DNA from: Pirellulales bacterium
GTDB lineage: Bacteria > Planctomycetota > Planctomycetia > Pirellulales > S012-138
Length of the DNA: 33,772 nucleotides
Direction of reading: 5' to 3'
NCBI GenBank assembly: GCA_028066245.1
Contig: JALCBR010000052.1
Location: 1-33,772 of the forward strand
Position 1 is the first letter of the stretch. Each line of letters starts with the position of its first letter. Made by a program: the position numbers and the translations under genes. Positions 4,990 to 31,924 of the stretch are shown here, one piece after another. The notes under the pieces were generated by a model. It was not told the DNA's origin and made no database searches. It saw nothing but the letters and a program-made list of their open reading frames with translations.

Positions 4990-5892
4990 CTAATAGAGCT
5001 GAACGCCTCCATCGATGCGGTGACGGACCTCTTCCAAAGCCAGCAGCAACGCTTGCTCCACTTCGTGGTAGTTGCTACCAGTCCCACGGACGACGACATG
5101 CCAGCTATGAGAAGCGGCGAAGCTGAGTTTATGAGTTTTTGTCTTTCGTGTGCGTGATCGTCGCTGCTGCTGAACTTTCTGAGCGATGTCCTGATGCGTC
5201 AGCCGTTTTGCTGCTGCTTGCTGTGCCAGTCTCTGCTGCTGGTCAGGGTCCTCAATACGAGAAATCTCATACGCCGTGCGAGGAGCGATCTGTTCGGATT
5301 CGACCAGCGTCTGGATTTCTTCCGGCAGCCGCAGCAGCGCCAACGATCGGGTCACCTTGGATTCGGGAACCGATAAGGCTCTGGCGACCTGCTTGCCGGT
5401 ATAACCGTGAATCTGCATCATCCGCTCAAACCCGCGTGCTTCTTCCAGTGGTTTGAGATTCTCACGCAGCAGATTCTCGATCATCTGCGCCTGCAGCACT
5501 TCGCCCTCCGACAGTTCTCTTTCGTGGCAGAAGCAGTCAATAGCCGGGAGTCCCGCCAGTTTCGCCGCCCGCCAGCGACGCTCCCCGGCGACAATGAGCC
5601 ATTTGCCGGCAGGCTCCGACCAGCGGACACGGATCGGTGCGAGTTGCCCCGCATCTCGGAGGCTGTTTGCCAACCGCTCGATCGCCTCCTCTGAGAATTC
5701 CGTCCGTGGTTGATCAGGGTCGGGAAGAATCTGATCGGTCTGGATGCTTCCATATTCTTGAAGTGGTCGGCGGCCCACGTCGCGGAGCTGAGCGACCGGG
5801 CTGAGCCGGACGTCGGCCACGCCTGTCCGTTCGCCCATCGACTCCGACAAGTTCTGTTCGACAAGTTCGAGCGTGCTACGTGTCGAAGCCAT
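4990..5892 (-). CDS. parB: ParB partition protein, module A
   Basis: This 300-aa ParB/Spo0J-family protein would bind centromere sites of the plasmid and stimulate the ParA ATPase. Visible blocks are the N-terminal LPDPDQPRTEFSEEAIERLANSLR (about 56-80), the CTP-binding-type motif GERRWRAAKLAG (about 103-114), and MIENLLRENLKPLEEARGFERM (about 136-157). The helix-turn-helix GKQVARALSVPESKVTRSLALL and the basic linker QQQRRSRTRKTKTHK follow. Its ATG overlaps the parA stop by one base (TGATG), indicating one operon. A homologue of identical length, with the same N-terminus MASTRSTL, is encoded at 19584-20486 but is clearly diverged. Confidence 0.9.
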   Translation of the reverse strand: MASTRSTLELVEQNLSESMGERTGVADVRLSPVAQLRDVGRRPLQEYGSIQTDQILPDPDQPRTEFSEEAIERLANSLRDAGQLAPIRVRWSEPAGKWLIVAGERRWRAAKLAGLPAIDCFCHERELSEGEVLQAQMIENLLRENLKPLEEARGFERMMQIHGYTGKQVARALSVPESKVTRSLALLRLPEEIQTLVESEQIAPRTAYEISRIEDPDQQQRLAQQAAAKRLTHQDIAQKVQQQRRSRTRKTKTHKLSFAASHSWHVVVRGTGSNYHEVEQALLLALEEVRHRIDGGVQLY

Positions 5893-6698
5893 CAGGCTAC
5901 CCGCTGGTCGCGTTCGGTTTCGTCGCGCCGACGAATCAACTCATGCCCCAACTCGGCTGTCATCAGTGCCGCTTTGGACCGAGGGCTGGAGTGGGTGACC
6001 GGCTGCCGGCAAGAAAGCGCTACCTTGAACGCTGACGCCTCGGGGATAATGGTCGTCAACACCTGCCCGACGTAAAGCTTCCGTAGTTTCTGCTCGTAAG
6101 CTCGGTGGACCAAGAGCCGGCCGTCGTAGCGCGTCACGACGTGACCCAACAGCTTGAGTTTGGGGTTGAGGATCTGCGCGCTGGTGATCGCCTGGTGTAC
6201 TGCCCGCAAGCCCTGCGTGCCAAAATCCTCAGGAGGCACCGGCACCAACACATAGTCCGCCGCCAGTAGCGCGTTCCAGCTGCAGGCGAAGAGGTTCGGC
6301 GGGCAATCGATTAACACGACATCGTAGTCTGGCAATCCTGCGAGCAACGAATCGAGCCGATATTGGGCCAGTCCCTGCATCTCTGGTTCTGGAACGTTGA
6401 ATCGAGCCAGGTGTTGATTCGCGGGCACTAGCTCAACACGTTCAATCGATGTCTTAATCGGCGAGCAGGAGCCTGCGGTCGTTGCGCTGGTAAGAAATGC
6501 ACTCGCGAGAGTCTGATGCGGCTTCAGCGTCTCTACAAACTGGGAGCCGAAGAATCCTTGACTGAGCGACCCTTGCGGGTCGGCGTCGACGAGCAGGACC
6601 TCAAGACCTTGTTGAGAGAAGTGGCCCGCCAGATGGAAGCAGGTAGAGCTTTTGCCGCAGCCTCCCTTCTGGTTGATCATGCAGATGGTTGTTGCCAA
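5892..6698 (-). CDS. parA: ParA partition ATPase, module A
   Basis: This ParA/Soj-type ATPase drives plasmid segregation together with ParB. The deviant Walker A motif is MINQKGGCGKSSTC near the N-terminus. Walker A' lies in LLVDADPQGSLSQGFFG, and Walker B in YDVVLIDCPPNLFACSWNAL. The chosen start is a TTG at 6698 (LATTICMINQKGG), which aligns with the module B protein. The frame continues upstream to a TTG at 6743, but that would run through a conserved palindrome at 6730-6744. There is no N-terminal DNA-binding domain, so autoregulation would have to involve ParB or another factor. It is divergent from rep. Confidence 0.9.
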   Translation of the reverse strand: MATTICMINQKGGCGKSSTCFHLAGHFSQQGLEVLLVDADPQGSLSQGFFGSQFVETLKPHQTLASAFLTSATTAGSCSPIKTSIERVELVPANQHLARFNVPEPEMQGLAQYRLDSLLAGLPDYDVVLIDCPPNLFACSWNALLAADYVLVPVPPEDFGTQGLRAVHQAITSAQILNPKLKLLGHVVTRYDGRLLVHRAYEQKLRKLYVGQVLTTIIPEASAFKVALSCRQPVTHSSPRSKAALMTAELGHELIRRRDETERDQRVA

Positions 6699-6729
6699 GC
6701 GCTCACCGTTGTTGACTGTGGTCAGTCCG

Positions 6730-6744
6730 ATTGCCACTGGCAAT
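6730..6744. promoter_or_regulatory. Conserved palindrome ATTGCCACTGGCAAT (module A)
   Basis: A 15-bp perfect palindrome (ATTGCCA-C-TGGCAAT) lies 31 bp upstream of the chosen parA start. The same palindrome with G at the centre occurs twice upstream of parA in module B (21322-21336 and 21458-21472). A half-site ATTGCCA lies at 6878-6884, near the rep start. The conserved location suggests an operator or a parS-type ParB site shared by both modules. Confidence 0.55.
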
Positions 6745-6893
6745 TCCTCGCTAACCGCTGGTTATCCTTACCGATACGTTGCCACGATTTGCCTGGAGGC
6801 GTCAACGAAAATTCCGTCTCAGGCAAGTTTTCGCTTTCGGGATTCCCGCGCCGCTGCTACGGGAGTTGAAAGAAGCAATTGCCATCTTTGACG

Positions 6894-8249
6894 ATGCCGC
6901 CACGAAACCGACTAAATACAGAGCAAACTGCCCTCTCTGCCGGCCTGAGCCAACTCTCGCTCGTCGAGCACGCGCTCTGCCCACTCGACACCCGCAAATC
7001 ACTGCAACAGGGGCTCGTTCACGAAAGCAGTTATCGCTACACAGACGCCAACGGCAAACGACAACTGGCCCAAGTCTGTATCGAGTGTCCACGAGGGCTA
7101 TCGGCGGCAGACGAGTTATATCTGTGGGGCCTGCTGGCTCTGACACTGGCTGAGGAGCAACCCTCGTTCGACTTCTACGCAACGCCACATTACTGCCTCC
7201 GGCAGCTGGGCGTTGTGGGGCCGAAGTCCAAGGGCGGCAAAAACTATCGGCTGTTCCGCGAATCGCTACGGCGATTGGCGGCGGTTTGCTACCAGAGCGA
7301 TCACTTCTACGACCCGGTGCGCAAAGAGCACCGTCGTGTCGACTTCGGGATGCTGAGCTATAGCCTGCCACTCCGCGATGATTCTTCTCGCGCTTGGCGG
7401 ATCGTATGGGACCCGGTCTTCTTCGAGTTTTGTCAGGCTTCGGGGGGACGGCTGCGATTCGATCTGGATGTCTACCGTCGACTCGACCCGGCCAGCAGGC
7501 GACTCTTGCTATTGCTGACCAAGGTGTTTTGGCGGCGAAGGTATTCGCCCTGGTTCGACGTGCGGGAACTTGCTGTACAGGTACTCGGCGTGGCTGATAC
7601 CTTGCCTACGAAGCGGCTCAAGGAGAAAGTCGAACGATGCGCCAGCGTGCTCGCCAAACATCAGGTGATAACGATGACTGAAAACAGAGATCTCTTTATC
7701 CGGCGAAAGCAGGGAGTGTTTGCGGTGCGTTTCGAGCGCGGACCTCGGGGTCAGCAGCAAGGTAGCGCAAGTAGCATGAATGTGGAATCGCCGTTGTGGG
7801 GACCTTTGCAGTCGATTGGGCTCGACCGCCAGGCGATCCGGCGGACTTTGAATCAATACCCGCACCAACTCGTGCGGAGATGGTCGGACGTCACGCTAGC
7901 TGCGATGGAACGCAAAGGGAACGGGTTCTTTCGCAAGAGTCCGGCGGCCCATTTCGTAGACAACCTCAAGGCAGCTAGCCGAGGCGAGCGGGGATTGCCC
8001 GACTGGTTTCTCGATCTCCAGAAACAGGAGCAAGCCCGCTTCGCCGAACGGGCTAGAAAGGTACAGCGCCGACCTGCCGGCGAATCACCCACTCGGGTGA
8101 CAACACCAGGACGCGCATTCCCGCTCAGGCTTTCACGGTCCGCGACGATCTCGGAGATGACGGCCCAGTTCATCGCGGCGGGTCAAAGCGAAGCCGACGC
8201 AAAGAAGAACGCGCACCGATTCGCAGCGGCGATGGTTGTAAAAGAGTAA
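6894..8249 (+). CDS. Plasmid replication initiator, module A
   Basis: This protein (451 aa from the ATG at 6894; a TTG at 6879 is also possible) resembles RepA-like plasmid initiators found with ParAB in planctomycetes. Landmarks are LSLVEHALCPLD near residue 20, the hydrophobic ELYLWGLLALTL, SRAWRIVWDPVFFEF, and the DNA-binding-like region YRRLDPASRRLLLLLTKVF. The C-terminal ~130 residues are basic and carry WGPLQSIGLDRQAIRRTL and HQLVRRWSDVTLAAMERKG. The protein is expected to bind the iterons that start 165 bp after its stop codon. It is homologous along its length to the protein at 21635-22882. The role is inferred from the rep-par-iteron context and general resemblance. Confidence 0.8.
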   Translation: MPPRNRLNTEQTALSAGLSQLSLVEHALCPLDTRKSLQQGLVHESSYRYTDANGKRQLAQVCIECPRGLSAADELYLWGLLALTLAEEQPSFDFYATPHYCLRQLGVVGPKSKGGKNYRLFRESLRRLAAVCYQSDHFYDPVRKEHRRVDFGMLSYSLPLRDDSSRAWRIVWDPVFFEFCQASGGRLRFDLDVYRRLDPASRRLLLLLTKVFWRRRYSPWFDVRELAVQVLGVADTLPTKRLKEKVERCASVLAKHQVITMTENRDLFIRRKQGVFAVRFERGPRGQQQGSASSMNVESPLWGPLQSIGLDRQAIRRTLNQYPHQLVRRWSDVTLAAMERKGNGFFRKSPAAHFVDNLKAASRGERGLPDWFLDLQKQEQARFAERARKVQRRPAGESPTRVTTPGRAFPLRLSRSATISEMTAQFIAAGQSEADAKKNAHRFAAAMVVKE

Positions 8250-8832: not shown

Positions 8833-9140
8833 CGTCGTATTCCTCCATCTCTGAGGTCAGTTTCTATTCTTGAGGAGTCGACTACCACAACTTGGAGAAA
8901 ACCGCAAAGTACGCTAACGAACCTGACTATCGGGGCTTCTCCGGCTTCGATGGTCGTTGGCTCATGCCGAAGCGCAGCCGTCTGAATCGTCGCCAGTCAT
9001 AAAGCGGCGGATAAGGGCGGTGTGCTGACGTCTCTTGACGGGGACAGCAGATCCGGGAATCTCGGTCTCATCAACCGGGGATAAGGATCGGAGGCTTGCC
9101 AGCCTCCCGGTGTTCGCAAGAGCACTCGTGCTGACCCTTC

Positions 9141-9174
9141 GAGCTGAGTGCCATGAGAGTGGCTCGCTCAGTTC
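9141..9174 (+). ncRNA. Group II intron domain V, copy A
   Basis: This 34-nt hairpin has the canonical length of domain V. It starts with GAGC (AGC catalytic triad) and ends with GTTC. The 8-bp lower helix GAGCTGAG/CTCAGTTC contains the typical G-U in the triad. A TCG segment on the 3' side supplies the 2-nt CG bulge. The upper helix GCCAT/GTGGC is capped by a GAGA (GNRA) tetraloop. The position normally occupied by a U-A pair beside the bulge is U-U here. Confidence 0.93.
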
Positions 9175-9274
9175 AATGGAGGCTCGTTGGAGTAAACTCC
9201 GCACGCGGCGCAAACTCTCGTTGTCAGAGAGAAGCGATCCGCTCCACGGAAACAATCCCAGCGTTCTATCCAAT
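9175..9274 (+). ncRNA. Group II intron domain VI and 3' splice site, copy A
   Basis: The helix pairs TGGAGG with the segment ending TCTATCCA, and CTCGTTGG with CCAGCG, enclosing a variable internal loop. In copy B one pair has changed from T-A to C-G. The adenosine at 9268 is bulged and lies 7 nt from the predicted intron end AT at 9274. This matches the branch-point geometry and the terminal AY of group II introns. Domain VI is longer than usual because its distal end carries an extra hairpin. Confidence 0.78.
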
Positions 9275-10565
9275 TGAGTTTGTCGAGCCCGCTTTGCCGT
9301 TGGCGAGGAGTCCGGGCGTTGACTAATCTTGGGCGCGATGACGCTCAAGCGAAGACGGGCGATGCGGACAAACCTTGCTCCGTTCCAATTGAACGATTCA
9401 AGGCCGTGTCGGTGACGCGAGCGTCTTTTGCTCGTGTCTGCGTTGGCACGCAAGCGTGACAATGCACAAAGCGGGTGCAAATCCCGTCCGTGGGGTTCGT
9501 GGCTTGCCTGCTTTGGCAGGTGAGTTCGTTCAACGCGGCTGGCGTGGGGAGTTTTGAGTCTGGCGACAGGCCAAACCGGAGTCGACCGCTCCGGGGATCG
9601 GGTTAACGGCCCGACCATGAAAAGCTCAACCATGAAAGGCGCAACCGAATACGTGAGGGAGCGCTTGCCAGTGAGATTCTGAGGAGACGGAGCCGAACCG
9701 CGAATATCCGTGCGGGGCTCGGTACCCCGAGCTTCTGGTTTCGTAGGGGGAAATCCGGCAGCATTGTTGTCGGTAAAGTAGGACTGGTCGGAAGGCCTCA
9801 CCTACCCACACGGACCGGGTGGTAACACACCCTAGCCACGTGACCTCAGAATCGAAGACCGACACTAACACAGGAACCACTGCGGCCTCCGGGTTTGGCA
9901 ACTCGGCGCCTCGTTTGGTCAACGAGGTAGTAGTAGCACGCGCGTCGTGCGAAACGCCGTAGTGGGGGAGAGTGGCCTGAGTAGAACGAGAACGGAAGTT
10001 CTCACGGAGGTCTGGGCGAAGGTTCAGACATGATTTCCCTGGGGAAATTGTGCGCGGCAAGGCAGTCGCGACCCGTCGACGTTGACCTGGGAGTGATGCC
10101 CCAGCGAGTCGGAACGAAAGGGCTGAGGGGTAAACGCGTTGCCATGCGCAACCGAAGCCCCCGTCAAGAGATGTTTGGTCGGCGCAGTCTTGCGCCGGCA
10201 AATTGCCTGGCTGGCAGCGATGCGGCTAGAGGTGGCTGTTCGGAAGAGCAGCTTCCTCTGGCGGCAGACTGACGACCGACGCTACCCGTGCGTTCTTCGC
10301 AGGGACAAGCGTCGGGCGAAGGTTTTGATCTGCGGGCACTATGAATTGGGCGTGTGCACTGACGAAACCAGTGCCGAATACGCCTATCGTGCCCGCTCGC
10401 GGGAGCAGCTGTCTGCGTCGCGGCGAGGATGGCCTTTGTCTGGTCGTCTCACTTGCGCACGCTATGATTGTTCTGTTGCCAGTAAGGATCTTCAAAACGG
10501 CATTCGTGGGATTGGCCGCAACCTAATCCCACACCCATTACGAACGAGCAACGAAGCGGAGGCCC

Positions 10566-11261
10566 ATGCAGTATCGGTGCGTCGCGTCATCCCCTGAAGG
10601 ACTCGTGCAGCAAGTCGCTGTGAGCTACCTGCGACACGGGTACTGGTACTACGTCACCGGTAGGATTCCGTCCCACAAAGATCCCGCTGTGGTTGATCGG
10701 AAGATCCTCGATAAGTACCAGGTCGCCATCAGCGAACGCGAGCGCTGTCGTCGCAAACGCCGCGGCCTGGCGAACCTACAATACATCCGCTACGGGAGTT
10801 GGTTCATTATCTTGGCGACCGATGGTCATCACCCGGTCAAGCAGCAGGAGCGTAGCCAGATCAAAGATTGTCGCCGTGTTCCTATCAAGTTCGAGGGCTA
10901 CTCGATCAGTTATCGTCGCAGCGGTGTAACGCCCAAGGGGGGAGGACCTCCGAAGTGGCACGCCTGCGTGCGGATCGACCAAGAGACCTACCGCGACCTG
11001 AAGGCATTTTTTCTTGAGCGAGCATGTCACCGGTCGATCGAGAACCTGGCAAGAGATTTTGCAAAAGTGCCCTATGCGCGATATGCACCTGTTCGCCGGC
11101 AACTGCTTGCTTTACTTCGGCAGGTAAACACAGCACGGGCGCGAACCGGTTTCCAGCCCGTGCCAACATCTGCTCTACGACTTCGTCGCAAGATAGTGAA
11201 GCCATTCGCCGGTGTCGAACCTGCAGTCTGGAGCGATCGCACGATGGCCAAAGCGACTTGA
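10566..11261 (+). CDS. Basic protein encoded downstream of the permuted intron, copy A
   Basis: This 231-aa, strongly basic protein is of unknown function. Its sequence is closely similar to the 216-aa protein at 25441-26091. Shared blocks include MQYRCVASSPEGLVQQVAVS at the N-terminus, RRKRRGLANLQYIRYGSWF near residue 65, IKFEGYSISYRR near 115, and YARYAPVRRQLL near 180. The last homologous residues are LRRKIVKPFA, after which this copy has ~15 extra residues, probably from loss of the ancestral stop. There are no reverse-transcriptase, LAGLIDADG or HNH motifs. The start is fixed by conservation and by GCGGAGG just upstream (only 3 nt from the ATG). A covarying hairpin of the RNA (10506-10532) lies directly before it. 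The gene occupies the position equivalent to domain IV, so an RNA-binding or splicing-helper role is plausible but unproven. Confidence 0.85.
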   Translation: MQYRCVASSPEGLVQQVAVSYLRHGYWYYVTGRIPSHKDPAVVDRKILDKYQVAISERERCRRKRRGLANLQYIRYGSWFIILATDGHHPVKQQERSQIKDCRRVPIKFEGYSISYRRSGVTPKGGGPPKWHACVRIDQETYRDLKAFFLERACHRSIENLARDFAKVPYARYAPVRRQLLALLRQVNTARARTGFQPVPTSALRLRRKIVKPFAGVEPAVWSDRTMAKAT

Positions 11262-19583: not shown

Positions 19584-20486
19584 TCAGTAGCGGATGTTGC
19601 TCTTGATGCGAAGTCGGACTTCGTCAAGGGCTTGTTCGAGGGCCTCTTCGAGATGGTGGTATGTGCCCTCTTGTGGCCCTTTGACCAAGACTTCCCAGCC
19701 GTTTTCTGCCCGAAACGAAAGCGTTTTCGTTTGTGGCTGGTTCTTGGGCTTACCGCGCCGCTTACGTACGGCGCTTGCAGCCTGTGTGTGGGTCATGCCA
19801 CCGTTGGCCGCTTGTGACGCCAACTTGCGGCGAGCGTTTTCGTCGGGGAGCTTGCTCACTTCGTAGGCCGTCCGAGCCGAAAGCTCGCCGTTGTGCACGC
19901 GCTGTTGGACATCCTGCGGCAAGTCGAGCAACGCCAGCGCTCGGCTGACGGTGGACGGGGTGATGTGTAGCGCCTCGGCTAATTGTCTTCCGTTCCAGTC
20001 ATTCAACTCCATCAGTGAGGAGAATGCGCGCGCCTGCTCGATTGGCTGCAGGTCTTCGCGAAGCAGGTTTTCGACCAGTTGTTGTTCCAGGATCTCCGAT
20101 TCGGACAGCTCACCGTCGTGGAAGAAACAGTCGACAGTTGCCAGGCCAGCGGCCTTTGCGGCTCGCCAGCGGCGTTCGCCGGAAACAATCATCCATTGCT
20201 GCTGGTCCTCCGACCAACGCACGCGAATCGGGAACAACTGCTTTGTGTCTTGCAGGCTCCGGGCAAGCCGGTCAAGCGACTCTGGGGTGATCTCCTTTCT
20301 CGGCTGCTTCGGGTCCGGCGTCAGCAAGTCGACAGGAATCTGTCCAAAACTACGCAGCGGTTTGCGGCCGATGTCCTTGGGGGAAGGAACGGGGCTCAAC
20401 TGAGGTCGATGGTCAACGGTGCGGATGCCCATTGACTCATTCAGATTTGCCGAAATCTCTTGAAGTGTGCTCCTGGTACTGGCCAT
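19584..20486 (-). CDS. parB: ParB partition protein, module B
   Basis: This 300-aa ParB/Spo0J-family protein has the same length and N-terminus (MASTRSTL) as the module A protein but is substantially diverged. The blocks are TPDPKQPRKEITPESLDRLARSLQ, SGERRWRAAKAAG, LVENLLREDLQPIEQARAF, a helix-turn-helix NGRQLAEALHITPSTVSRALALL and a basic linker RKRRGKPKNQPQTK. Its ATG overlaps the parA stop by one base (TAATG), as in module A. Similar proteins with a shared palindromic site in both modules raise the question of cross-talk between the two partition systems. Confidence 0.9.
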   Translation of the reverse strand: MASTRSTLQEISANLNESMGIRTVDHRPQLSPVPSPKDIGRKPLRSFGQIPVDLLTPDPKQPRKEITPESLDRLARSLQDTKQLFPIRVRWSEDQQQWMIVSGERRWRAAKAAGLATVDCFFHDGELSESEILEQQLVENLLREDLQPIEQARAFSSLMELNDWNGRQLAEALHITPSTVSRALALLDLPQDVQQRVHNGELSARTAYEVSKLPDENARRKLASQAANGGMTHTQAASAVRKRRGKPKNQPQTKTLSFRAENGWEVLVKGPQEGTYHHLEEALEQALDEVRLRIKSNIRY

Positions 20487-21301
20487 TACGCGACGTGTCG
20501 TTGTCCGTTTCTCACACTGATGCGGTCGAGAATCTCACGACTCAGCCGGGCTGTCAAATCGCTGGCAGGCGACTTGGGGCTATGGTGCTGAATTGGCTTG
20601 CGACAGGCCACGGCGACTTTGAATGCCGAAGCCTCGGGAATGACCGTATCCAGGACCATGTCGCCGTAAAGCTCGCGCAGACGCTGCTCATAGGCGCGGT
20701 GGATGAGCAAGCGACGGTCAGAGCGGGTTACCAGGTGGCCCAGACAATACACCCTGGGGTTTAGCACGTGGGCGTTCTGAATCGCCTGATGAACCGCCCG
20801 CAAGCCCTGCGTTCCAAAATCTTCCGGTGGCGCAGGAATGATGACCCAATGGGCAGCGATCATCGCCGCCCAGCTGCAACGGTACAGATTCGGCGGGCAG
20901 TCAATCAGGATGATGTCGAACGCTCGCTGTCGACCCGTAAACTCCGCGAGAGCGTGCTGCGACAATCCCGTCGTTTCCGGCCCGGGTGTGTTGAGGGGCC
21001 CGGCGTGATGGTTGCACGGGCAGATCGAGATACGGTCAAACACCGTGGGACGGATCAATCGCTCATCATTCACGAGAAGGTCGCTGCCTTCACCCAGCAG
21101 CGCCGCTACGGTTTGCTCGACCGGCAGAGATTCGACCAGCTCGGAGCCGAAGAACCCGCGGCTGAGCGAGCCTTGGGGATCCGTATCGATGAGCAGCACG
21201 TTCAGGCCGGCTTGGGCAAAAGCGCCGGCCAGATGAAAGCACGTTGAGGACTTGCCGCAACCTCCTTTTTGGTTGATGAGACAGATCGTCGCTGGCCGCA
21301 T
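20486..21301 (-). CDS. parA: ParA partition ATPase, module B
   Basis: This is a ParA/Soj ATPase of about 271 aa, starting at the ATG at 21301 (MRPATICLINQKGGCGKSS) with CGAGGATTC upstream. Frames further upstream cross a regulatory palindrome and lack a ribosome site. It carries the deviant Walker A KGGCGKSS, LLIDTDPQGSLSRGFFG and FDIILIDCPPNLYRCSWAAM. The C-terminal segment (VIPEASAFKVAVACRKPIQHHSPKS) matches module A closely. It is divergent from rep, as in module A. Confidence 0.92.
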   Translation of the reverse strand: MRPATICLINQKGGCGKSSTCFHLAGAFAQAGLNVLLIDTDPQGSLSRGFFGSELVESLPVEQTVAALLGEGSDLLVNDERLIRPTVFDRISICPCNHHAGPLNTPGPETTGLSQHALAEFTGRQRAFDIILIDCPPNLYRCSWAAMIAAHWVIIPAPPEDFGTQGLRAVHQAIQNAHVLNPRVYCLGHLVTRSDRRLLIHRAYEQRLRELYGDMVLDTVIPEASAFKVAVACRKPIQHHSPKSPASDLTARLSREILDRISVRNGQRHVA

Positions 21302-21634
21302 GAATCCTCGTGGATGAAGGAATTGCCAGTGGCAATTCCGCGTAACTCTCCGAAATCGTTTCCGATACCGTGGCACAAGCCTTGAAAGGTCGTCAAGGAT
21401 TTTTGTGGGCAAGCCGCGGGTACCCGGGATTGCTGGCGGGTGGAGTCTCGTATTGCGATTGCCAGTGGCAATTCTGTGCAAGTCCCGGGAACTTCAGGTG
21501 AATTTGGTGGCTTTGGAACGGAAGGTGGTCTCTTGGGTTTTTCCTGTTCTGGATCGTCCATACGTGTTACGTGAAATGTAGTTTAACGCAATTAAAGTCG
21601 TTGACCGTTGAAACGCGACATCCATTCTCCGGCC
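21302..21634. promoter_or_regulatory. parA-rep divergent control region, module B
   Basis: This 333-bp gene-free region holds two identical palindromes ATTGCCAGTGGCAAT at 21322-21336 and 21458-21472, 136 bp apart. A hairpin CCTTGA/TCAAGG followed by TTTTT near 21383-21408 could act as a weak terminator or attenuator. TACGTG is repeated near 21560. The palindrome nearest parA lies 20 bp before its start codon, where it could control that promoter. Confidence 0.5.
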
Positions 21635-22882
21635 ATGTTGAATGGTACGGGGCAGCTCACGCTTGTCGAGCATTCTCTCTGTCCACTCGACCCGCGCGCA
21701 TCGCTGGTTAAGAACCTCGTCCACCACACGCAGTATCAGTTCAGCTCTCCGGACAAAAAACGGCAGACATCGCACGTACAAGTATTCTGCCCGCTCGGAC
21801 TCACGGCGACGGATGAGTTCTTTCTCTGGGGCCTTTTGGCGCTCACGATGCAGCAGCGACCTGAGGATCGGGCAGAGTTGCGTGCCACGCCACACTGGTG
21901 CCTCCGCCGGCTGGCGATCATAGACGAGCTCTCGCGGCGGGGCGGCCGGCAGTATCGCCAATTTCGCGACACAGTTCGCCGGTTGTCCACAGTCGCTTAC
22001 GTCAGTGACGAATTCTACGATCCTGTTCGAGGTGAGCACCGGGAGATCGCTTTTGGATTCTTCAAACACTCCCTGCCGAAGGGCGAGCAATCCAAACGCG
22101 CCTGGCGAATCGTCTGGGATCCGCTGTTCATGGAAATGGTCCAGCCGGCGGCGGGCCAGCTACGGTTTGACCTGCATACCTACCGGCAACTCGATCCGGC
22201 GAGTCGCCGGCTGTTTCTGTTTCTTTCCAAAGTGTTTCCCCGAAAGAGTCTATTGGCGTCGCTCGATTTGACGCACTTGGCTGTCAATCTCCTGGGGTTT
22301 TCCGAAACGCTGAATCGGCGCGTGCAGAAAGCCAAGGTCAAACGGTGCTTTGACCGGCTCCAGCGTCTGGACGTGGTCTCTCGAGCTGAGTTCACAAAGA
22401 GCGGCAGAGGCAGCTACCGAATTCGTGTCGAGCCGGGTGGGTATTTCAACAAGAAGCAAGGGAGGATTGTCATGACAGAGTTCGATGAATTGCCACTGTG
22501 GGATACGCTGCTGCAAATTGGCTTTGAGCCAGCCGCTGCGGCGCGGCTGATGAAACGCTATTCGCACCGGCTGCTGGAAGAGTGGGCCGATATCACACAA
22601 GCCGCTCAGGAACGGTTTGGAGCCTCCTTCTTTCACGCGAGCCCAATGGCATTTTTGGTCGATTCGGTGAAGCATGCCGCTCGCGGGCGCCGTACACCAC
22701 CAGACTGGTGGCTGGAGCTCAAACGACAAGAGGCTGCCAAAGAACAACTGGACCAACAAAGCCAGCAGTTCCTGGCCCGCGTTCGCTGTCATGTGTTCGG
22801 CCCGTCCGTCGACGACGAATCCACGCGGGTCCAGTCCGGTCCCGGGCTGTCGAGCGCGGCAGATGTGCTCCGAAACGGGTAA
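21635..22882 (+). CDS. Plasmid replication initiator, module B
   Basis: This protein (415 aa from the ATG at 21635; a TTG at 21608 is possible) is homologous to the module A initiator. Shared landmarks in order are LTLVEHSLCPLDPR, DEFFLWGLLALTM, ATPHWCLRRLAI, YDPVRGEHREIAFGFF, KRAWRIVWDPLF and YRQLDPASRRLFLFLSKVF. The middle basic segment SETLNRRVQKAKVKRCFDRL and the C-terminal LWDTLLQIGFEPAAAARLM also align. The protein should recognise the iterons at 23039-23126. Sequence divergence between the two initiators is matched by different iteron sequences, as expected for two compatible replicons. Confidence 0.8.
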   Translation: MLNGTGQLTLVEHSLCPLDPRASLVKNLVHHTQYQFSSPDKKRQTSHVQVFCPLGLTATDEFFLWGLLALTMQQRPEDRAELRATPHWCLRRLAIIDELSRRGGRQYRQFRDTVRRLSTVAYVSDEFYDPVRGEHREIAFGFFKHSLPKGEQSKRAWRIVWDPLFMEMVQPAAGQLRFDLHTYRQLDPASRRLFLFLSKVFPRKSLLASLDLTHLAVNLLGFSETLNRRVQKAKVKRCFDRLQRLDVVSRAEFTKSGRGSYRIRVEPGGYFNKKQGRIVMTEFDELPLWDTLLQIGFEPAAAARLMKRYSHRLLEEWADITQAAQERFGASFFHASPMAFLVDSVKHAARGRRTPPDWWLELKRQEAAKEQLDQQSQQFLARVRCHVFGPSVDDESTRVQSGPGLSSAADVLRNG

Positions 22883-23811: not shown

Positions 23812-24072
23812 GTCAAAGAGCTCTCGAAATCATTACGACAGGATGACTTTTCCGTTGGTACTGGTAAGGTTCGTGTCATAGGCGAGTGACTCCGCTCGCC
23901 GGTCGTCATGCTCATGCACAACGCATTCGTTCGAAACTCGGTGCGCCATAAAGCCGGGCATAAGGGCGATTGAGCTGATGTCTCCTGGCGGGGACAGCGG
24001 GTCCAGGAATCTTGGTCTCATCAACCGAGGATAAGGATCAGGAGTTGCCAACTCCTCTCGCGCTGGCCCTTC

Positions 24073-24107
24073 GAGCTGAGTTGCCATGAGAGTGGCTCGC
24101 TCAGTTC
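24073..24107 (+). ncRNA. Group II intron domain V, copy B
   Basis: This hairpin is identical to copy A except for one extra T at the base of the upper helix (35 nt). It has GAGC at the start, GTTC at the end, the lower helix GAGCTGAG/CTCAGTTC, and a GAGA tetraloop on GCCAT/GTGGC. Confidence 0.92.
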
Positions 24108-24200
24108 AATGGAGGCTCGTCGGAGTAATCCCGATGATTGCACGCTTCCTTTGTCTGGAAGAAGCAATCTGTTCGGCGTAATCCCGGCGTTCTATCCAAT
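24108..24200 (+). ncRNA. Group II intron domain VI and 3' splice site, copy B
   Basis: The basal helix TGGAGG/TCTATCCA matches copy A, and the helix CGTCGG/CCGGCG has a compensatory C-G in place of T-A. The bulged adenosine at 24194 lies 7 nt from the predicted intron end AT at 24200. The distal hairpin differs in sequence from copy A (TTCC/GGAA within TTGC/GCAA). Confidence 0.78.
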
Positions 24201-25440
24201 AGGTTCTCCATCAGACAACTGAAGAACGGGAAAACGGGCGATGCGGAAAGACCTTGCTTCGGCAAGGCCGTGTCGGTGAAGCGAATCGTTTGTGCTGATT
24301 CGTTTCCCTGCGAGGGCCACCTGGTTCTGGCAGGCAAAGCGGGTGTAAATCCCGTCCGCGGGGCTCGGGCTTGCAACAGCGAGTTCGTTCAACGCGGCTG
24401 GCGTGGGGAGCTGCTGTCCGGCGACGGGCAGTACCGGGGCGTGATCACTCCGGCGACTATCGGCAAATCCGATGGCGGTGAAAAGCTCAACCATGAAAGG
24501 CGCAACTGAATACGCAAGGGAGCGCTTGCCAGTGAGGTTCTGAGGAGACGGTGCCGAACAGCGAACATCCGTGTGGGAGCGGTACCCCGAGCTTCTGGTT
24601 TCGTAGGGGGAAATCTGACTTGCGAAGTTGGGAAAGTATGGCCGGCCGGAAGGCGGCACATACCCATGCGGACCGGGCGGTAACATGCCCTAGCGACGTG
24701 AACTCAGAATCGAAGACCGATGCTAACGCAGGAGCCACTGCGGCCTCCGGGTTTTGGCGACCCGGTGCGTGGATTGGTCATCCACGTGGAAGTAGCAGCT
24801 TCGTGCTGCGAAAAGCCGTAGTGGGGGAGAGTGGCCTCAGTAGAACTCGCGCGGAAGCGCGGGCGGTGATCCAGGCGAAGGCTTGGGCACGACTGCCGCA
24901 AGACCAATGCGGTGAGTGTGCGCGGCAAGGCAGTCGCGACCCGTCTGCAGTGATTCGAGGGTGATGCCTCGATGAGCAGGAACGAAAGGGCTGAGGGGCT
25001 TGAGGTCGCCGCGGTGGCGACCGAAGACCCCGCTGGGAGATTTGTCGCCGGTTGCTCTTCGGAGCGCCGGCGTCCTTGGCGGGCAGCGATGCGACTAGAG
25101 GTGGCTGCTTGGGAAAGCGGCTTCTTCTGGTGGCGGACTGACGACGGACACTCGGCGTGCGCCTTCTGCACGCGCGAGTGTCCGGCCGAGGTTTTCTTAC
25201 GCAGGCACTATGTATTGTGGCAGTGCACTGACGAAACCAGTGCATAGACGGCCGACATGAATAGTGCCTGCGACATGCTCGACTCGATTGCTGGCCGTCT
25301 GCTGCGACTTCTGTATGGTCGCGGCGGGACGAGCCGGTGGTTGCGCGAGCAGCGCTGTCGCCAAGGATTTGATGAGAGAGCCGGCTTCGTGGGGTGGCCG
25401 TAAAACAACCCCACACTTTTGTTCTGCAATGCGGAGGACC

Positions 25441-26091
25441 ATGCAGTATCGGTGTGTCGCATCATCGCCCGAAGGGCTCGTTCAACAAGTCGCCGTCAGC
25501 TACCTGCGTCACGGCTACTGGTTCTACGTGACCGGCCGGATTCCGCGAGGAAAGGATCCGGAGGCGGTCGACCGGAAGCTGATCGCGAAGTACGACATTG
25601 CCGTCAGCGAACGTGAACGCGCCCATCGCAAACGTCGCGGTCTCGCCAACATGCAATACATTCGTTACCAGGATTGGTTCCTGCTGCTCGCGACCGAGGG
25701 CCACCATCGGTTTAAACAGGAGGAACGCAAACAGATTTGCGACTGTCGCCGGCACCCAATCAAGTTCGAAGGATACTCGATCAGCTACCGCCGCGGTGGC
25801 CAGACGCCGCCTGGTGGCGGCCAGCCGAAGTGGCACAGCTGCGTCCGCATCGATCCGGCGACCTACAAGCAGCTCAAGGAGTTCTTCCTCGATCGTGCCT
25901 GCCACCGTTCCGTCGATAACCTCGCCAGCGACTTCGCTCGTGTGCCCTATGCTCGCTACGCTCCGGTGCGCCGACAATTGCTGACAATCGTGCGGGCGAC
26001 CAACGATGCCCGAGCTCGCATGGGATTCGATTCCCTGCCGTATACGGCCCTTGGTCTTCGTCGTCGAATCGTGAAGCCGTTCGCCCCGTGA
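25441..26091 (+). CDS. Basic protein encoded downstream of the permuted intron, copy B
   Basis: This 216-aa basic protein is homologous along its whole length to the one at 10566-11261. The start is the ATG directly after GCGGAGGACC, as in copy A. A frame open further upstream (25264) runs through the RNA and is not conserved. Conserved blocks are SYLRHGYWFYVTGRIP, KRRGLANMQYIRYQDWF, LLATEGHHRFKQEERKQI, IKFEGYSISYRRGG and RRQLLTIVRATNDARARMGF, ending LRRRIVKPFAP. Aromatic and Arg residues dominate the conserved positions, as in many RNA-binding proteins, but no known fold is recognised. It ends 2 bp before the convergent methyltransferase stop. Confidence 0.85.
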   Translation: MQYRCVASSPEGLVQQVAVSYLRHGYWFYVTGRIPRGKDPEAVDRKLIAKYDIAVSERERAHRKRRGLANMQYIRYQDWFLLLATEGHHRFKQEERKQICDCRRHPIKFEGYSISYRRGGQTPPGGGQPKWHSCVRIDPATYKQLKEFFLDRACHRSVDNLASDFARVPYARYAPVRRQLLTIVRATNDARARMGFDSLPYTALGLRRRIVKPFAP

Positions 26092-26093: not shown

Positions 26094-28049
26094 TCAAGAC
26101 ACCTCCGGAGTCGAATCGCCTGCGCGGATGCGAGGGACCACGTGGGCGTCCCAATAGCTCTTTCGTCCAATTCGTGCTGTGTCAACATTTGAGAGTGACA
26201 TCCAGTGCAACGATCGATGCCTGCTCGCGGCAACGTCAAACCCATGGTAAGTGTCTTCGACCATCAGCCACTTGTGATGGTATATGTACGGGTCATCGAG
26301 CTGTTTTCGGTCTTGAGTCGTGCCGTCTGCACGGACGAGGATGTGACGACCAACGACCGGTTCATCTGCGGTGTCGAAGTCCGGGGAGGAGACGAATGTT
26401 AGAGCTTCAGTTTTGATGTTGAGCTTCACGACGGTGTACTCAAAGCCCTCGGGGATACACTTCTTCGCCGTTTGTACACGTTCTCCGAGAACGTCTTCAT
26501 AATCGCGATGAACGTAGACATTGCCGCCAATCTCCTTCCCGACCCCGAAGCGTTTGGATCGAATCGGCAAGCCGTTGAGTTGCGGAGTCTGCTCACCCCG
26601 CGCAGCGACTCGGGCCAATCGATGGCCGCGAAGTTCACAGCCGAACGCCGCCAGTTGCTCGGACCACTGTCGTCGCGATCGAATATCCCAGCTTCGCTCC
26701 ATTAAGCCTCTCTTGAACTCTTGCTTTGTCAGCCTCTCGAACTTCGCGCGCAAAGGATGGTCGGCGCCAACCATCTTTTCCTTCTGGTCGAGGAGCAATG
26801 GATTCTCCGATTTGGCATGGTCAAAGTAGTCCAGCTTCAATGTGCGGAGGGACAGTTTCACCGTTGAGGTGACCGCCGGATGTGCGTCGCGATCGAAGTT
26901 TGGGCACGACAGGTATGACAGCTTGCCCGAGAAACGGTGGAGCTTGACGATATTCATGTCGTCCATCGAACCCACGTAGGCCTGGGCACAGCCCTCATAG
27001 ATGCGGAGGATCGGACAAAGCAGCGGAACAGCGTCCCGATGCAACCACAACGCATTCGATGTCAGTCTGCCGATTTGGGACTCGCGGCAAGCTTGATCGA
27101 TGTTGTCGGCATCACCTGCCTGAAATAACAATGCGTCAGCAGTCTCACATGCGTTCTTGTAGGAGCCGAAGAATGCCTTGATGTCGCGTTGCGTCCTCTT
27201 TGGAAGTTGCGCCATCTTTGGCCGCTTACCGAACTTGGACAGAGCGATGTAGACCGTGAGGTCCTCGACGCGCGCCGTGTGAATCGAGTCCCAGTCTTCT
27301 TCTCCCGTCACCTTCTTCACAAGTGCAAACGCTCGCTTGAGCGAGCCGAACACTTCAACGACCTCAGCCGCGAGAGCGAACTCGTCCTCGGCGGGCAGCC
27401 TCCCGAGTGAAAGAACCGTTTCAATCAGCGGCTCCAAAATCTCTCTGTTTTCCTCAAACCGAACTTCGGCGATTCGCTTGCGTGGCGCAGCGATGGATCG
27501 GCGAACGCGATCCGACAAGAATTGGCTTTTGAGCTTTTCGTCACGAAAGACATAGAAGACACCCGGAGCGGCAGGGAGTGCTTCTTCTCCGGTAGCGTCC
27601 TCGATGTATTCACGCAGCTCCGCTTGCGTGTAGTATTTTTGGAACGTCCCAATCGAGGTGACCAAGCCGTCACCGTACACAACCTCTCGCCCGCTTGTTT
27701 CTCCCATCACGACACGAGCGGCGACACAAAGCAGTCGATTGGCAAGCGACCACGCCTTGCATAGTGTTTGCCGGCGCTCATTGAGGTTCTCGATGACGTT
27801 TATCACGTAGCCGAGATTGACGATATCGGCCTGCTGTGGCTCAACGTCTGGTCGGAAGACAGGATCGAACCCCTCGCAGTCGATCCCTTCCTCACCGAGT
27901 GCAACCAGGTCGTCTCCGTGGCCGCAACCGTAGTCAAACACCGTTCGCTCAGGTGCGATCATCCGGTCTCGCCACAGACACTTGACCGGACGCGAGTAGT
28001 CGTAACGCTTGATTGCGGCCTTGTGGCGTTTGATTCGTGCGTGATCCAT
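26094..28049 (-). CDS. DNA phosphorothioation-associated putative methyltransferase
   Basis: The 651-aa protein has a SAM-dependent methyltransferase-like N-terminus. MDHARIKRHKAAIKRYDYSRP is the family's characteristic opening, and motif I is DYGCGHGDD at residues 39-47. GYVINVIEN and the RLLCVAARV strand follow. It then has a long non-catalytic C-terminal region with YEGCAQAYVGSMDDMNIVKLHRFS and many helices. I recognise it as the dnd-related putative methyltransferase often encoded beside phosphorothioation genes. Its substrate is not established. The start ATG at 28049 lies 195 bp from the divergent HsdR_N-NTPase gene, a shared promoter region. Confidence 0.85.
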   Translation of the reverse strand: MDHARIKRHKAAIKRYDYSRPVKCLWRDRMIAPERTVFDYGCGHGDDLVALGEEGIDCEGFDPVFRPDVEPQQADIVNLGYVINVIENLNERRQTLCKAWSLANRLLCVAARVVMGETSGREVVYGDGLVTSIGTFQKYYTQAELREYIEDATGEEALPAAPGVFYVFRDEKLKSQFLSDRVRRSIAAPRKRIAEVRFEENREILEPLIETVLSLGRLPAEDEFALAAEVVEVFGSLKRAFALVKKVTGEEDWDSIHTARVEDLTVYIALSKFGKRPKMAQLPKRTQRDIKAFFGSYKNACETADALLFQAGDADNIDQACRESQIGRLTSNALWLHRDAVPLLCPILRIYEGCAQAYVGSMDDMNIVKLHRFSGKLSYLSCPNFDRDAHPAVTSTVKLSLRTLKLDYFDHAKSENPLLLDQKEKMVGADHPLRAKFERLTKQEFKRGLMERSWDIRSRRQWSEQLAAFGCELRGHRLARVAARGEQTPQLNGLPIRSKRFGVGKEIGGNVYVHRDYEDVLGERVQTAKKCIPEGFEYTVVKLNIKTEALTFVSSPDFDTADEPVVGRHILVRADGTTQDRKQLDDPYIYHHKWLMVEDTYHGFDVAASRHRSLHWMSLSNVDTARIGRKSYWDAHVVPRIRAGDSTPEVS

Positions 28050-28244
28050 TTTGCCGGATGTGGGCAGTGCGAGAATTCCTCGCTAAGATACTCGCAGAGT
28101 CTGACTTCTGACTGCAGTTGGATTGTCCACCGCCGATGGTTTCAGAAAAGCAGTTTACCCCAAACCCAGACGCCATTCGCTCCCGTTGTAGGTGGAATCA
28201 CTTCCGCCTCCGGATTTTTCACATGCGCTGAAGGATCAGGCCAA

Positions 28245-30743
28245 ATGTCTCTCGTGTGGTCAGAGGACGATGTTCGCACAAAGGTTGTTTACTCCTGGCT
28301 ACGTGAGCATGGATTCGCACCCCAAGATATTCGCATCGAGTTCGGATTCAAGATCCGCGCGGGCCGGCAAATCATTTCGACTCCTCGAACTGATGCTCTG
28401 GTGTCAAACGCGCAGGGGCAAAACCTGCTGGTCGTGGAAGTCAAAGCTCCAGATCTGCCGCTGACGGATGCTGATCGAGACCAAGCGATTTCCTACGCCG
28501 GCATGGTCGCAGCAGGCAATCAAGTGCCATTCGTCGTTCTAACCAACGGTGTTGACACACGGTTATATGAGTCTGCCACTCGGGAGCTACTGAATGGCGA
28601 AAGCGTGCCGACTAGCCATAGATATGCCAAGGCTGGCTATGTCATTTGTGGTGACGACCTTGGTTTGCTGAAGGAAGTCATTGATTCGTTCGTCTCTCTT
28701 TGTCCGGAAAACCTGCACAAGTTCTGTGCTTCTCAGGTCGACTCCCGTATGAATGTGCTTCGGGGAAGCGACCTTCACTGTGGGAAAAAGTACATACCGG
28801 ACCTTTACGTAAAAAGACCGCGCGTCTCTGACCGGCTGCGCAACCTTCTCGACAGCGACAAGAGGCCAGTTGTTTTGCTGTTTGGGCGCCCTCAAGTCGG
28901 GAAGACCAATTTTGTTTGCCACGAGGTAGAGACACGATTGTCATCCGGGCAGCCAGTTCTGTTTTATCCCGCGATCGGAATGCTGGGACGACTCACCTCC
29001 GAAATAGCGAACGATTTCGGTTGGTTGTTCAATGGAGCGGCCGTCAATTCTGTTGAGTGCTGGACGCGGCTACTGCGAATCGTTGAAAAATCGAGCGAGA
29101 GACTCGTGCTCTTCGTCGATGGATGGAATGAAGCGACGCAGGAGATTGCTCAGTCGATTCACCGGGATTTTGATTTATTGCAGGGCCGTCAGGTGCAGCT
29201 TGTCGTCTCCCTGACCAGTACGTCATGCAAACGCCTGCTGCAGGATGACGCCGGAAACGTGGAATCTGTTGCGGATGCGTGCGGAATCCCGCGCTCGGCC
29301 CTCGACCTGTTGGAGGCGAACCCCGAGATTTCAGACCGGCGTACATGGAGCATAGCAAACTGCGATTCTTTCTCGGAAGACGAAACGAAGAATGCATACG
29401 CGACGTACTCTCGAGCGTTCAACGTCTCCGTTCCTCCTCAGCACGTCTCGACTCACGATCCGTATACTTTGCGAATTGCAATGGAGCAATGCAAAGACAG
29501 TGTGTTGCCCATCAGCATTTACGAACCGCCCCTGGTGTGTGAGTCGATTCGACGAAAGGCGGATCGCGCGGTTGGGCTGGATGGAAACTCGGTCATTTCT
29601 TCACTGCAAACTCTTGGCCAGTCCCTCATCGAACAAGGCGCACCACTTCCCGAGCATCAGGCAAAACGGAGTCTCGGCTTGTCGCTGTCGGACGCTTTTC
29701 CGTGCGGACTCTTCGACGCTGCGCTCCTGGCAAGGGTACCGACAAAGTCCCTTGAGGCCGGTGTTGATTTCTACTACGGACGCGAACGCGACTACGTGAT
29801 ATCCCACCTTTGCTGCAAATGGGACGTGAAGCTGGCTCAGCTATCGACCGTAGCCAAGGAGTTCAGTAACACTGTTAAATCTGCCGTCGGCCGCGAATCG
29901 TTGACGTGGTTCCTATCGCAACCAGTCTATCTGAAGGAGTTGCTGACTTCTTCTAAACCGATCGTCTTCCCAACTCCAGTGCTTCAACTTGTTCTTATGG
30001 GGCTTTCATCATCATGGCGGCAGCTTGATCAGGAAGCAGCGCTTCAGTTCTCGCTGGATTGCTCGATCACAGCAGATGATCCAAGAGTCGTTGTGGAAGC
30101 AGCGCGACTTGCCATTGAGATGACAGAAGAGGATGATTCTCTGACGTCCGCCGTTGAAGAATACGAACAGATGGACGTGTGGCTCTCACGCGCACTAACA
30201 ATTGGGAAGCTTGACAAAGATGCAATCAGCGCGGGGCTTTTGGAAGCACTGAAGAAGCATCATTGGCAGTATGAACAGGGCGCAGCCGTCCACGAGTCGG
30301 ACATCAGCCAAGTCCTGATACAATGTATGACCGCGAGTTCTTCAGCCACACGTGCAGCTGCCTCAAAATGCTTCGGATTCATCGATCCACTGCTTTACTT
30401 CGACAGCATTGGATCAATAGTCGAGGCCGGAGTTGATCCAGCCGAATTGCTGGACGGTCTCGAATTCGCAGAATCGGAATTGGCTGAACGGTACTACGGT
30501 AGCTACTGTCCAGGAGCCATGGAGTATCTGAAGGACTGTCCTGAGTCGCTCAAATGCGAGTACTTGGATGTTCACGAGTATCTCGAAAAAGCGATCCGCC
30601 ATCTCCCGTGGGAAGATACGGAGTTCATTCGCGATCTCCTTGAAAAATTAACTCCGCCGGATATTGACTCCTGCGATGAACCGTTCAAGCACGATCCCAA
30701 CAACTTGCTGCTGCCATTCATGGGCGACTGTGATGATGGGTGA
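28245..30743 (+). CDS. HsdR_N-like nuclease fused to a STAND-like P-loop NTPase
   Basis: This 832-aa protein (ATG at 28245 with AAGGATC upstream; the frame open from 27768 is antisense to the methyltransferase) begins with an HsdR_N/PD-(D/E)xK nuclease-like domain. Candidate catalytic residues are Asp50 in PRTDALV and Glu65/Lys67 in VVEVKAP. A P-loop ATPase follows: Walker A GRPQVGKT at 214-221 and Walker B LVLFVDGWNE ending near 296. The remaining ~530 residues are helical and could be a sensor. Nuclease-NTPase-sensor order is that of antiphage STAND proteins (Avs-type) and also suits the restriction partner of a DNA modification system. It precedes dndA by 21 bp on the same strand, suggesting one operon. 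Confidence 0.75.
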   Translation: MSLVWSEDDVRTKVVYSWLREHGFAPQDIRIEFGFKIRAGRQIISTPRTDALVSNAQGQNLLVVEVKAPDLPLTDADRDQAISYAGMVAAGNQVPFVVLTNGVDTRLYESATRELLNGESVPTSHRYAKAGYVICGDDLGLLKEVIDSFVSLCPENLHKFCASQVDSRMNVLRGSDLHCGKKYIPDLYVKRPRVSDRLRNLLDSDKRPVVLLFGRPQVGKTNFVCHEVETRLSSGQPVLFYPAIGMLGRLTSEIANDFGWLFNGAAVNSVECWTRLLRIVEKSSERLVLFVDGWNEATQEIAQSIHRDFDLLQGRQVQLVVSLTSTSCKRLLQDDAGNVESVADACGIPRSALDLLEANPEISDRRTWSIANCDSFSEDETKNAYATYSRAFNVSVPPQHVSTHDPYTLRIAMEQCKDSVLPISIYEPPLVCESIRRKADRAVGLDGNSVISSLQTLGQSLIEQGAPLPEHQAKRSLGLSLSDAFPCGLFDAALLARVPTKSLEAGVDFYYGRERDYVISHLCCKWDVKLAQLSTVAKEFSNTVKSAVGRESLTWFLSQPVYLKELLTSSKPIVFPTPVLQLVLMGLSSSWRQLDQEAALQFSLDCSITADDPRVVVEAARLAIEMTEEDDSLTSAVEEYEQMDVWLSRALTIGKLDKDAISAGLLEALKKHHWQYEQGAAVHESDISQVLIQCMTASSSATRAAASKCFGFIDPLLYFDSIGSIVEAGVDPAELLDGLEFAESELAERYYGSYCPGAMEYLKDCPESLKCEYLDVHEYLEKAIRHLPWEDTEFIRDLLEKLTPPDIDSCDEPFKHDPNNLLLPFMGDCDDG

Positions 30744-31916: not shown

Positions 31917-31924
31917 TGCCACAG

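Follow-up and report, generated by a model that had tools for sequence, protein, structure and literature searches.

Two circularly permuted group II ribozymes of a Pirellulales bacterium, their plasmid-type surroundings and their companion protein AcpG, a possible maturase relative

Introduction

Circularly permuted (CP) group II ribozymes, formerly known as T-large RNA, were published as a class in 2021 by Roth et al. (PMC8637638). According to the main text of that paper five members of the class that were tested are active in vitro, the linker between their reversed splice sites spans 15–86 nt, and in Polaromonas no in-vivo processing of the CP RNA was detected (PMC8637638). The RNAs are described there as residing on plasmids, the copy of pPNAP05 being located near the origin, and deletion of the CP RNA leaves plasmid pTT8 able to replicate (Aoki and Itoh 2007, cited after PMC8637638). 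The protein associated with these RNAs was named AcpG by the same authors, who reported no homology to known proteins; some CP RNAs are found without acpG nearby, which makes the association frequent, not universal (PMC8637638).

Here we compare with this class two RNAs of a Pirellulales bacterium (assembly GCA_028066245.1, contig JALCBR010000052.1, positions 1 to 33,772 of the forward strand); this whole stretch of 33,772 nt is referred to below as the window. The ribozyme class itself is known, and what is new concerns its occurrence in planctomycete and cyanobacterial phyla (as compared with the main text of the cited paper), the size of the RNAs, the gene order and a maturase-like reading of AcpG.

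Results

Anatomy of the two RNAs

Both copies belong to the + strand and are 15 kb apart: copy A occupies ~8998–10535 and copy B ~23947–25417. They share 71.6% identity across 1478 positions of a pairwise alignment, and a blastn search of the host genome (4.94 Mb, 186 contigs) with copy B as a query returned these two copies only. It is near certain that A and B are CP group II ribozymes built in the order D5-D6-linker-D1-D2-D3-D4, with the following elements (the basis of each assignment is given in brackets).

8998..9140, +, copy A: conserved 5' segment before D5 (A/B identity, family alignment)
9141..9174, +, copy A: domain 5 (Rfam RF00029, 12-sequence consensus, single-sequence fold)
9177..9274, +, copy A: domain 6, including the bulged branch-point A9268 and the 3' splice-site motif (consensus structure, single-sequence fold)
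9275..9356, +, copy A: linker, predicted 82-nt RNA circle (motif spacing)
9357..10400, +, copy A: domains 1-4 with GGGCG (5' splice site) at the start (covariation, A/B comparison, family alignment)
10506..10532, +, copy A: terminal hairpin (family alignment, single-sequence fold)
10566..11261, +, copy A: acpG (ORF directly downstream of the RNA)
23947..24072, +, copy B: conserved 5' segment before D5 (A/B identity, family alignment)
24073..24107, +, copy B: domain 5 with AGC triad, GAGA tetraloop and two-nucleotide bulge (consensus, fold z −4.67)
24110..24200, +, copy B: domain 6, including the bulged branch-point A24194 and the 3' splice-site motif CTATCCAAT (consensus structure)
24201..24235, +, copy B: linker between the reversed splice sites, predicted 35-nt RNA circle (motif spacing)
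24236..25275, +, copy B: domains 1-4 with GGGCG (5' splice site) at the start (covariation, A/B comparison, family alignment)
24636-24663, 24768-24786 (TGGTC loop), 24847-24862 (GGAA loop) and 25201-25271, +, copy B: hairpins of D1-D4
25389..25414, +, copy B: terminal hairpin, shortly before acpG (10-row alignment, RNAalifold)
25441..26091, +, copy B: acpG, an AcpG homologue with predicted RT-like palm and thumb lacking the catalytic DD (profile and predicted fold)

In the consensus as well as in single-sequence folds of A and B, D5 shows the AGC triad and a bulge and D6 carries a bulged adenosine; folded alone, D6 of copy B has the same single-A bulge as the consensus. The segment preceding D5 takes the place of P1/P2 in CP group II RNAs, and a P1/P2 pairing within it is putative. 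The terminal hairpin lies ~30 nt before the acpG start codon.

Compensatory changes between the copies

The first-pass annotation of this DNA read copy B as a second permuted intron-type ribozyme with compensatory stem changes. This reading is supported, and all the changes it listed were found by sequence comparison at the coordinates that it gave. In the stem GTAGG/CCTAC (9778-9805 in A), represented by GTATG/CATAC in B (24636-24663), one pair changed from G-C to T-A and four remained the same. Three double changes convert CCTCGTT/AACGAGG of A into CGTGGAT/ATCCACG of B around a constant TGGTC loop, four convert GAGAAC/GTTCTC into a CGCGC/GCGCG stem around a constant GGAA loop, and one was registered in the stem formed by 10332-10396 in A and 25201-25271 in B. 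The terminal hairpins (10506-10532 and 25389-25414) differ on both sides and both fold, the fold of copy B being not better than that of its own shuffles (z −0.92). Judging by position, the mid-RNA helices of that list are hairpins of the D1 region.

Altogether 47 pairs were compared, including the five listed helices, D5 and GGGTG/CACCC. Eleven of them changed on both sides and still pair, one changed on one side, 31 are unchanged and four were scored as broken, the latter all in the terminal hairpin, where the pairwise alignment shifted by one base. The statement that two copies already prove selection on RNA structure was too strong for 11 events from two sequences; it became firm with twelve. 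The same annotation set RNA against protein as the object of selection, and here the codon phases agree with it: mismatches are distributed as 136/134/150 in the RNA and as 41/29/121 in the adjoining acpG. This lack of codon periodicity also bears on the opposite reading, in which the sequence is kept for a protein that it encodes and the stems have no significance of their own. Mechanical ORFs do overlap the RNA, but with such a distribution of mismatches the probability of this reading is negligible. The exact class, the anatomy of splice sites and branch point, the protein partner and enough sequences for covariation were absent from the annotation.

Covariation and splice-site motifs in relatives

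Since two sequences make a thin proof, relatives were collected. Covariation in the larger alignment was well above that of shuffles: for helices of the D1 region in twelve sequences covariation was 0.477 versus 0.187 in shuffled alignments, none of 500 shuffles being as high. Slid partners reached at most 0.135, in a comparison that favours the structure named from copy A over its slid versions. Double changes were found in 22 of 31 pairs of this region, and 86.8% of cells are paired. The D5/D6 consensus of the same twelve sequences consists of the D5 hairpin and D6 with one bulged adenosine, with double changes in 18 of 33 predicted pairs. For the terminal hairpin ten of the twelve rows were used, because automatic alignment misplaced the hairpin of L003 and L007, where it is present by eye; in all ten the stem is rebuilt (by eye), although RNAalifold kept only four pairs, each with double changes.

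Directly behind D6 the aligned copies carry CTATCCRAT, and GGGCGA opens D1 within 100 nt. Reversed internal splice sites (the 3' motif, then GGGCG) are present in 19/19 CP copies from four phyla, that is in 12/12 aligned sequences and 7/7 further matches of the covariance model, and the linker between them varies within about 12–100 nt. Covariation located no convincing partner for an EBS1-IBS1 pairing at the 5' splice site: the lowest mean energy was registered at 9723-9740 of copy A, where the own-versus-swapped signal is absent (z about −1), and the best z of 225 windows (−2.55) belongs to another place.

Assignment to the class

At gathering thresholds Rfam finds no match in the window. 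D5-D6 of copy A scored 39.9 bits with RF00029 (gathering 40, E 6.4e-6), and in relatives L009 (49.4 bits) and L010 (47.6 bits) the cut-off was exceeded. A single snoRNA match of Rfam in copy B (E 0.46) was rejected as chance. The absence of matches at gathering thresholds and a size of ~1.4 kb could be expected from some other type of large structured RNA, akin to riboswitches or OLE, whose resemblance to a group II intron does not reflect membership. Against it stand the RF00029 matches to D5-D6 in A, L009 and L010, as well as the branch adenosine and both splice-site motifs placed as in the CP class; this reading is very improbable and already close to being refuted.

Canonical group II introns have splice sites at their ends. 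As an explanation of A and B such an intron was rejected, because D1-D6 order, terminal splice sites and an IEP in D4 were not found. One canonical-type group II intron is present elsewhere in the host genome (G000 contig C79:25299-27266, −; locus L096), with a 619-aa RT ORF containing YADD and, by eye, an HNH-like C-terminus. Like other canonical introns it has D5-D6 homologous to those of CP RNAs (43.8 bits with our CP model), and differs from them by the usual order of domains, with the RT upstream of D5-D6. Zero matches of the GIIM profile in the host genome had raised the idea of a host lacking any group II maturase. It was dropped, since RVT_1 gave four matches in three ORFs, one of which is the intact group II RT of contig C79. 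An ordinary maturase is, thus, available in trans.

Our own D5-D6 covariance model gave 82–123 bits for close members, 37–65 for diverged ones and 30–45 for canonical-type D5-D6; the ranges of diverged CP and canonical units overlap, so that low-scoring units are told apart by domain order and splice sites and not by their score. With model R1 copy B, which belongs to the training set, scored 115.9 bits over 24060-24201. Copies outside the training set were detected in Planctomycetota, Cyanobacteriota, Planococcus and Paraburkholderia with E from 1e-21 to 4e-7. Thermus CP RNAs and bases 1-50000 of the 58808 of pPNAP05 received no score; for the RNA of Thermus pTT8 this is explained by the model being too planctomycete. 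Read directly, the pTT8 sequence contains CTATCGCAAT, a 35-nt linker, GGGCGACCCGGACAGG and the TGGTC loop.

Predicted reaction

What follows on the reaction and its products is deduced from the class as published. In D6 the bulged adenosine (A24194 in B) would attack, with its 2'-OH, the 5' splice site before GGGCG (24236), and the freed 3' end of the linker would then attack the upstream 3' splice site behind CCAAT (24200). The linker should thereby be back-spliced into a small RNA circle of 35 nt in B and 82 nt in A, the other product being a branched RNA in which D5-D6 would hang on D1 by a 2'-5' bond. By analogy with the five class members tested in vitro (PMC8637638), A and B should perform this back-splicing.

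Distribution of the RNA and of acpG

Relatives of acpG were found in five loci on planctomycete genome contigs and in seven plasmid records (Planctomycetes K2D, Leptolyngbya, Calothrix, Planococcus); 8 of 392 planctomycete genomes, the host included, contain them. A D5-type hairpin together with the rest of the ribozyme precedes acpG in 15/15 loci outside the window that have enough upstream sequence (scored by hairpin scan or by the D5-D6 covariance model), and in both window copies. These loci were collected through the AcpG protein, and their count does not give the frequency of RNAs without acpG. Locus L006, cut off at the 5' side, matches the D1-D4 part. The reverse search of 149 genomes with our D5-D6 model yielded four matches of CP strength (>100 bits) in three genomes, all with acpG. 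On the chromosome of Planctomycetes TBK1r (L004) a second, N-terminally truncated acpG (7933-8451) follows the intact one after ~2.3 kb, and the hairpin scan found no D5 upstream of it.

In plasmid5 of Calothrix sp. NIES-4101 (L011) two CP D5-D6 units (1616-1732 and 3767-3874) are spaced by ~2 kb and accompanied by one acpG. Two copies in one genome were encountered in four cases: the window, L011, SJ586 (L003, L007) and, as described in the main text of PMC8637638, T. thermophilus HB8. Plasmid pPT65 of Paraburkholderia terrae (L088, 3223-5007) carries an unannotated CP group II RNA divergent from an AcpG homologue; this locus bridges the planctomycete and Thermus branches.

AcpG as a family and as a maturase candidate

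Proteins encoded by the two acpG genes of the window are 75% identical and belong to no Pfam, NCBIfam, PHROGs or PDB-sequence family; among the viral contigs and phages searched no AcpG relative was found. In direct BLASTP the window ORF has no similarity to TTHC007 of Thermus, and the two are connected only by profiles. Profile-profile comparison of the planctomycete-centred AcpG (17 sequences) with TTHC007 (6 sequences) gave a probability of 95% and E 3e-8 over 171 columns, while 100 column-shuffles reached at most 0.9% and reversal 0.5%. An ORF of the Paraburkholderia plasmid was matched by both profiles (E 1.7e-11 and 1.8e-6), and it adjoins a divergent CP D5-D6 (E 1e-8). At the level of sequence profiles the window ORF is, thus, a remote homologue of AcpG.

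Its structure was predicted by AlphaFold in two models: model 1 for AcpG P0001 (pLDDT 81.9, pTM 0.72) and model 2 with L005 in front (pLDDT 75.7); the two overlap and have one six-sequence alignment in common. VIA-align was run on the first 1000 PDB matches of Foldseek. For model 1 its rows 1-10 (Z 8.0–9.3) were taken by RTs of group II introns in nine cases and by the group II-like G2L4 RT in one (rmsd 4.2 over 200 residues for 8h2h_D), followed by Prp8, DRT9 and other RTs. For model 2 the structures 6me0_C, 8fli_B and 8h2h_D scored Z 9.3, and the rows were again mostly RT-type folds. The best superpositions of these predicted models on group II RTs have Z 9.3 and rmsd 4.0–4.2 over 182–200 residues. 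A best Z of 7–8 is usual also for models without a clear match, which makes the level for AcpG moderate and leaves the uniformity of the rows as the argument. In Foldseek itself neither model reached a match at E ≤ 0.001: model 1 was closest to a GGDEF domain by E-value (E 9e-3, prob 0.35), followed by a group II RT (E 0.017, prob 0.91), and for model 2 a retron RT was first (E 2.4e-3) and group II 8t2r_D third (8.7e-3, prob 0.96).

Support from sequence for a relation of AcpG to RTs is marginal. The catalytic YxDD of motif 5 is absent from all 17 AcpG sequences as read from the alignment, and no match to RVT_1 or GIIM of Pfam was found up to E 10. The hhalign register aligns QYIRYGSWFIILAT with the YADD hairpin, FEGYSI with FLGY and the helices that follow with the thumb, i.e. 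in the order RT5-RT7-thumb. With 13 RTs this comparison gave E 0.005 (0/400 shuffles as high) and with 12 RTs, taken from loci L042-L086 as those having an ORF of 350–700 aa with [YFWL]ADD (other loci being dropped), E 0.065, or 0.22–0.29 if restricted to palm and thumb; no signal appeared with 5 RTs or with all 24 AcpG sequences. Leave-one-out scores (20.1–30.8) overlap the shuffle maximum of 26.5, and the hhalign match is, therefore, not robust alone.

Based on the RT-like fold rows, the RT5-RT7-thumb register and the missing DD, AcpG is read here as a probable RT-dead group II intron maturase trimmed to palm and thumb; both its maturase-type origin and its role are deduced from the predicted structure. 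Most likely such a protein would bind the ribozyme and stabilise its fold, as maturases do. One can also assume that the RNA is a CP group II ribozyme and AcpG an unrelated small alpha/beta protein, for instance DNA- or RNA-binding, that rides along. The absence of any known family, the weak Foldseek E-values and the marginal comparison with RTs fit this assumption, and since some CP RNAs have no acpG nearby (PMC8637638), RNA and protein need not interact. However, the best rows of both models are group II RTs aligned over ~180–200 residues, above Prp8, DGR and retron RTs, AcpG and RTs share the RT5-RT7-thumb register in sequence, and the RNA adjoins acpG in every full locus found through acpG. 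An unrelated protein is, therefore, in our estimate unlikely, though it keeps an appreciable share of the probability.

Genes around the ribozymes

Both copies sit in modules of the same order: parB and parA on the − strand, then a Rep-like gene, the ribozyme and acpG, all on the + strand.

4990..5892, −, parB of module A (Pfam ParB_N, E 2e-21)
5892..6743, −, parA of module A (Pfam AAA_31, E 7e-33)
6879..8249, +, probable replication initiator of module A (shares 46% identity over 379 aa with its counterpart in module B)
19584..20486, −, parB of module B (Pfam ParB_N, E 7e-20; 49% identity with ParB A)
20486..21481, −, parA of module B (Pfam AAA_31, E 2e-25; 56% identity with ParA A)
21608..22882, +, probable replication initiator of module B, first codon uncertain (pairwise match to a pK2D_1 protein)

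The Rep-like gene of module B has no Pfam match; its product is 26% identical over 174 aa (pairwise E 2e-8) to the annotated "Replication initiator protein A" of pK2D_1. A tblastn search of plasmids with the Rep-like P0005 (E 1e-3) gave no match, and the Rep assignment rests, therefore, on one pairwise comparison, local tblastn and gene position. The order parB-parA-Rep-like gene-ribozyme-acpG was also found in L004, G307 and plasmid pK2D_1. Of 11 planctomycete loci outside the window that lie in mapped genomes, 6 have a ParB gene no farther than 6 kb away (G307, G216, G266, G397 and both loci of G396, for which contig numbers were equated with record numbers and which have ParA inside; G105, G002, G270, G242 and G398 have no ParB at that distance), as compared with roughly 0.1 of 11 expected according to our own estimate (1–8 ParB matches per genome of 3–11 Mb). 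Near the CP RNA of pPNAP05 the annotation contains trfA and a ParA-family gene. Together with ParA/ParB and a probable replication initiator, the RNA and acpG move as a pair in elements that are plasmid-type or integrated, and this neighbourhood directs the search for function to plasmid maintenance.

Other genes of the window were registered as well. Between the two modules three tyrosine recombinases stand in a row on the + strand (14636-17914; individually 14636-15982, 15556-16923 and 16916-17914), which we take to be the layout of a recombinase-in-trio (RIT) element. An ArdC-type anti-restriction gene is located at 17950-18606, and a large serine recombinase adjoining a RepB/ParB-type protein at 1731-4213 (−). 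With its serine recombinase, RepB/ParB-type and ArdC-type genes, the contig has the appearance of a mobile element, or of two. Downstream of module B there are HsdR-N-type and methyltransferase-like genes (26094-30743), then a DndA/SspA-type cysteine desulfurase (E 8e-142) beside an SspD-type protein (E 6e-113) at 30765-32770; genes of 26094-32770 probably form a phosphorothioate-type DNA modification or defence locus.

Discussion

Taken together, the data make it likely that a CP group II ribozyme acting by back-splicing, AcpG as an RT-dead relative of maturases and a ParA/ParB/Rep-type element belong to one system; its anatomy, covariation, class membership, remote AcpG homology and gene neighbourhood were observed. 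As to the protein, we lean by a small measure to the view that AcpG is a dead maturase cut to palm and thumb, in parallel with Prp8, which would serve a rotated ribozyme in plasmid-type partition/replication modules of Planctomycetota and Cyanobacteriota. In the literature searched we found no paper making a maturase-like reading of AcpG. If AcpG is indeed a reduced maturase, the missing protein partner of CP ribozymes is encoded next door, and experiments could address directly where it binds, how it affects the Mg2+ requirement and which phenotype its loss produces. AcpG would then join Prp8 as the second example of a reverse transcriptase of introns that has been retained solely to scaffold a catalytic RNA.

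Compared with group II intron RTs/maturases (8h2h, 8fli, 6me0, 6ar1) and Prp8, AcpG has a similar predicted palm and thumb (Z 7.4–9.3) and, like them, a beta-hairpin with conserved R, the F.GY motif and thumb helices in the order RT5-RT7-X. It differs by its length of 216–231 aa and by the absence of recognisable finger motifs, catalytic DD or a Pfam match. With the AcpG/TTHC007 family of Thermus it has remote homology and the same gene association in common, and differs by the lack of pairwise BLASTP similarity.

The closest system is the CP group II class of Roth et al. 2021, as presented in the main text of PMC8637638. The RNAs of the window resemble it in the D5-D6-D1..D4 order, reversed NU and GGGCG sites and short linker, in the bulged branch adenosine, absence of an internal ORF and acpG nearby, in the plasmid-type context and in the presence of two copies in one genome, which is also the case in T. 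thermophilus HB8. A term search of this main text found neither Planctomycetota nor Cyanobacteriota named. The window RNAs are also longer, ~1.4 kb from D5 to acpG against ~900 nt on average, a typical value of the class (PMC8637638); in the Planococcus copy D5 is located 789 nt before the acpG match. In planctomycete, cyanobacterial and Planococcus loci acpG lies downstream on the same strand, whereas in Thermus and in the Paraburkholderia locus it is divergent, and RNAs of the window type differ from the described class by their position within a ParA/ParB/Rep module.
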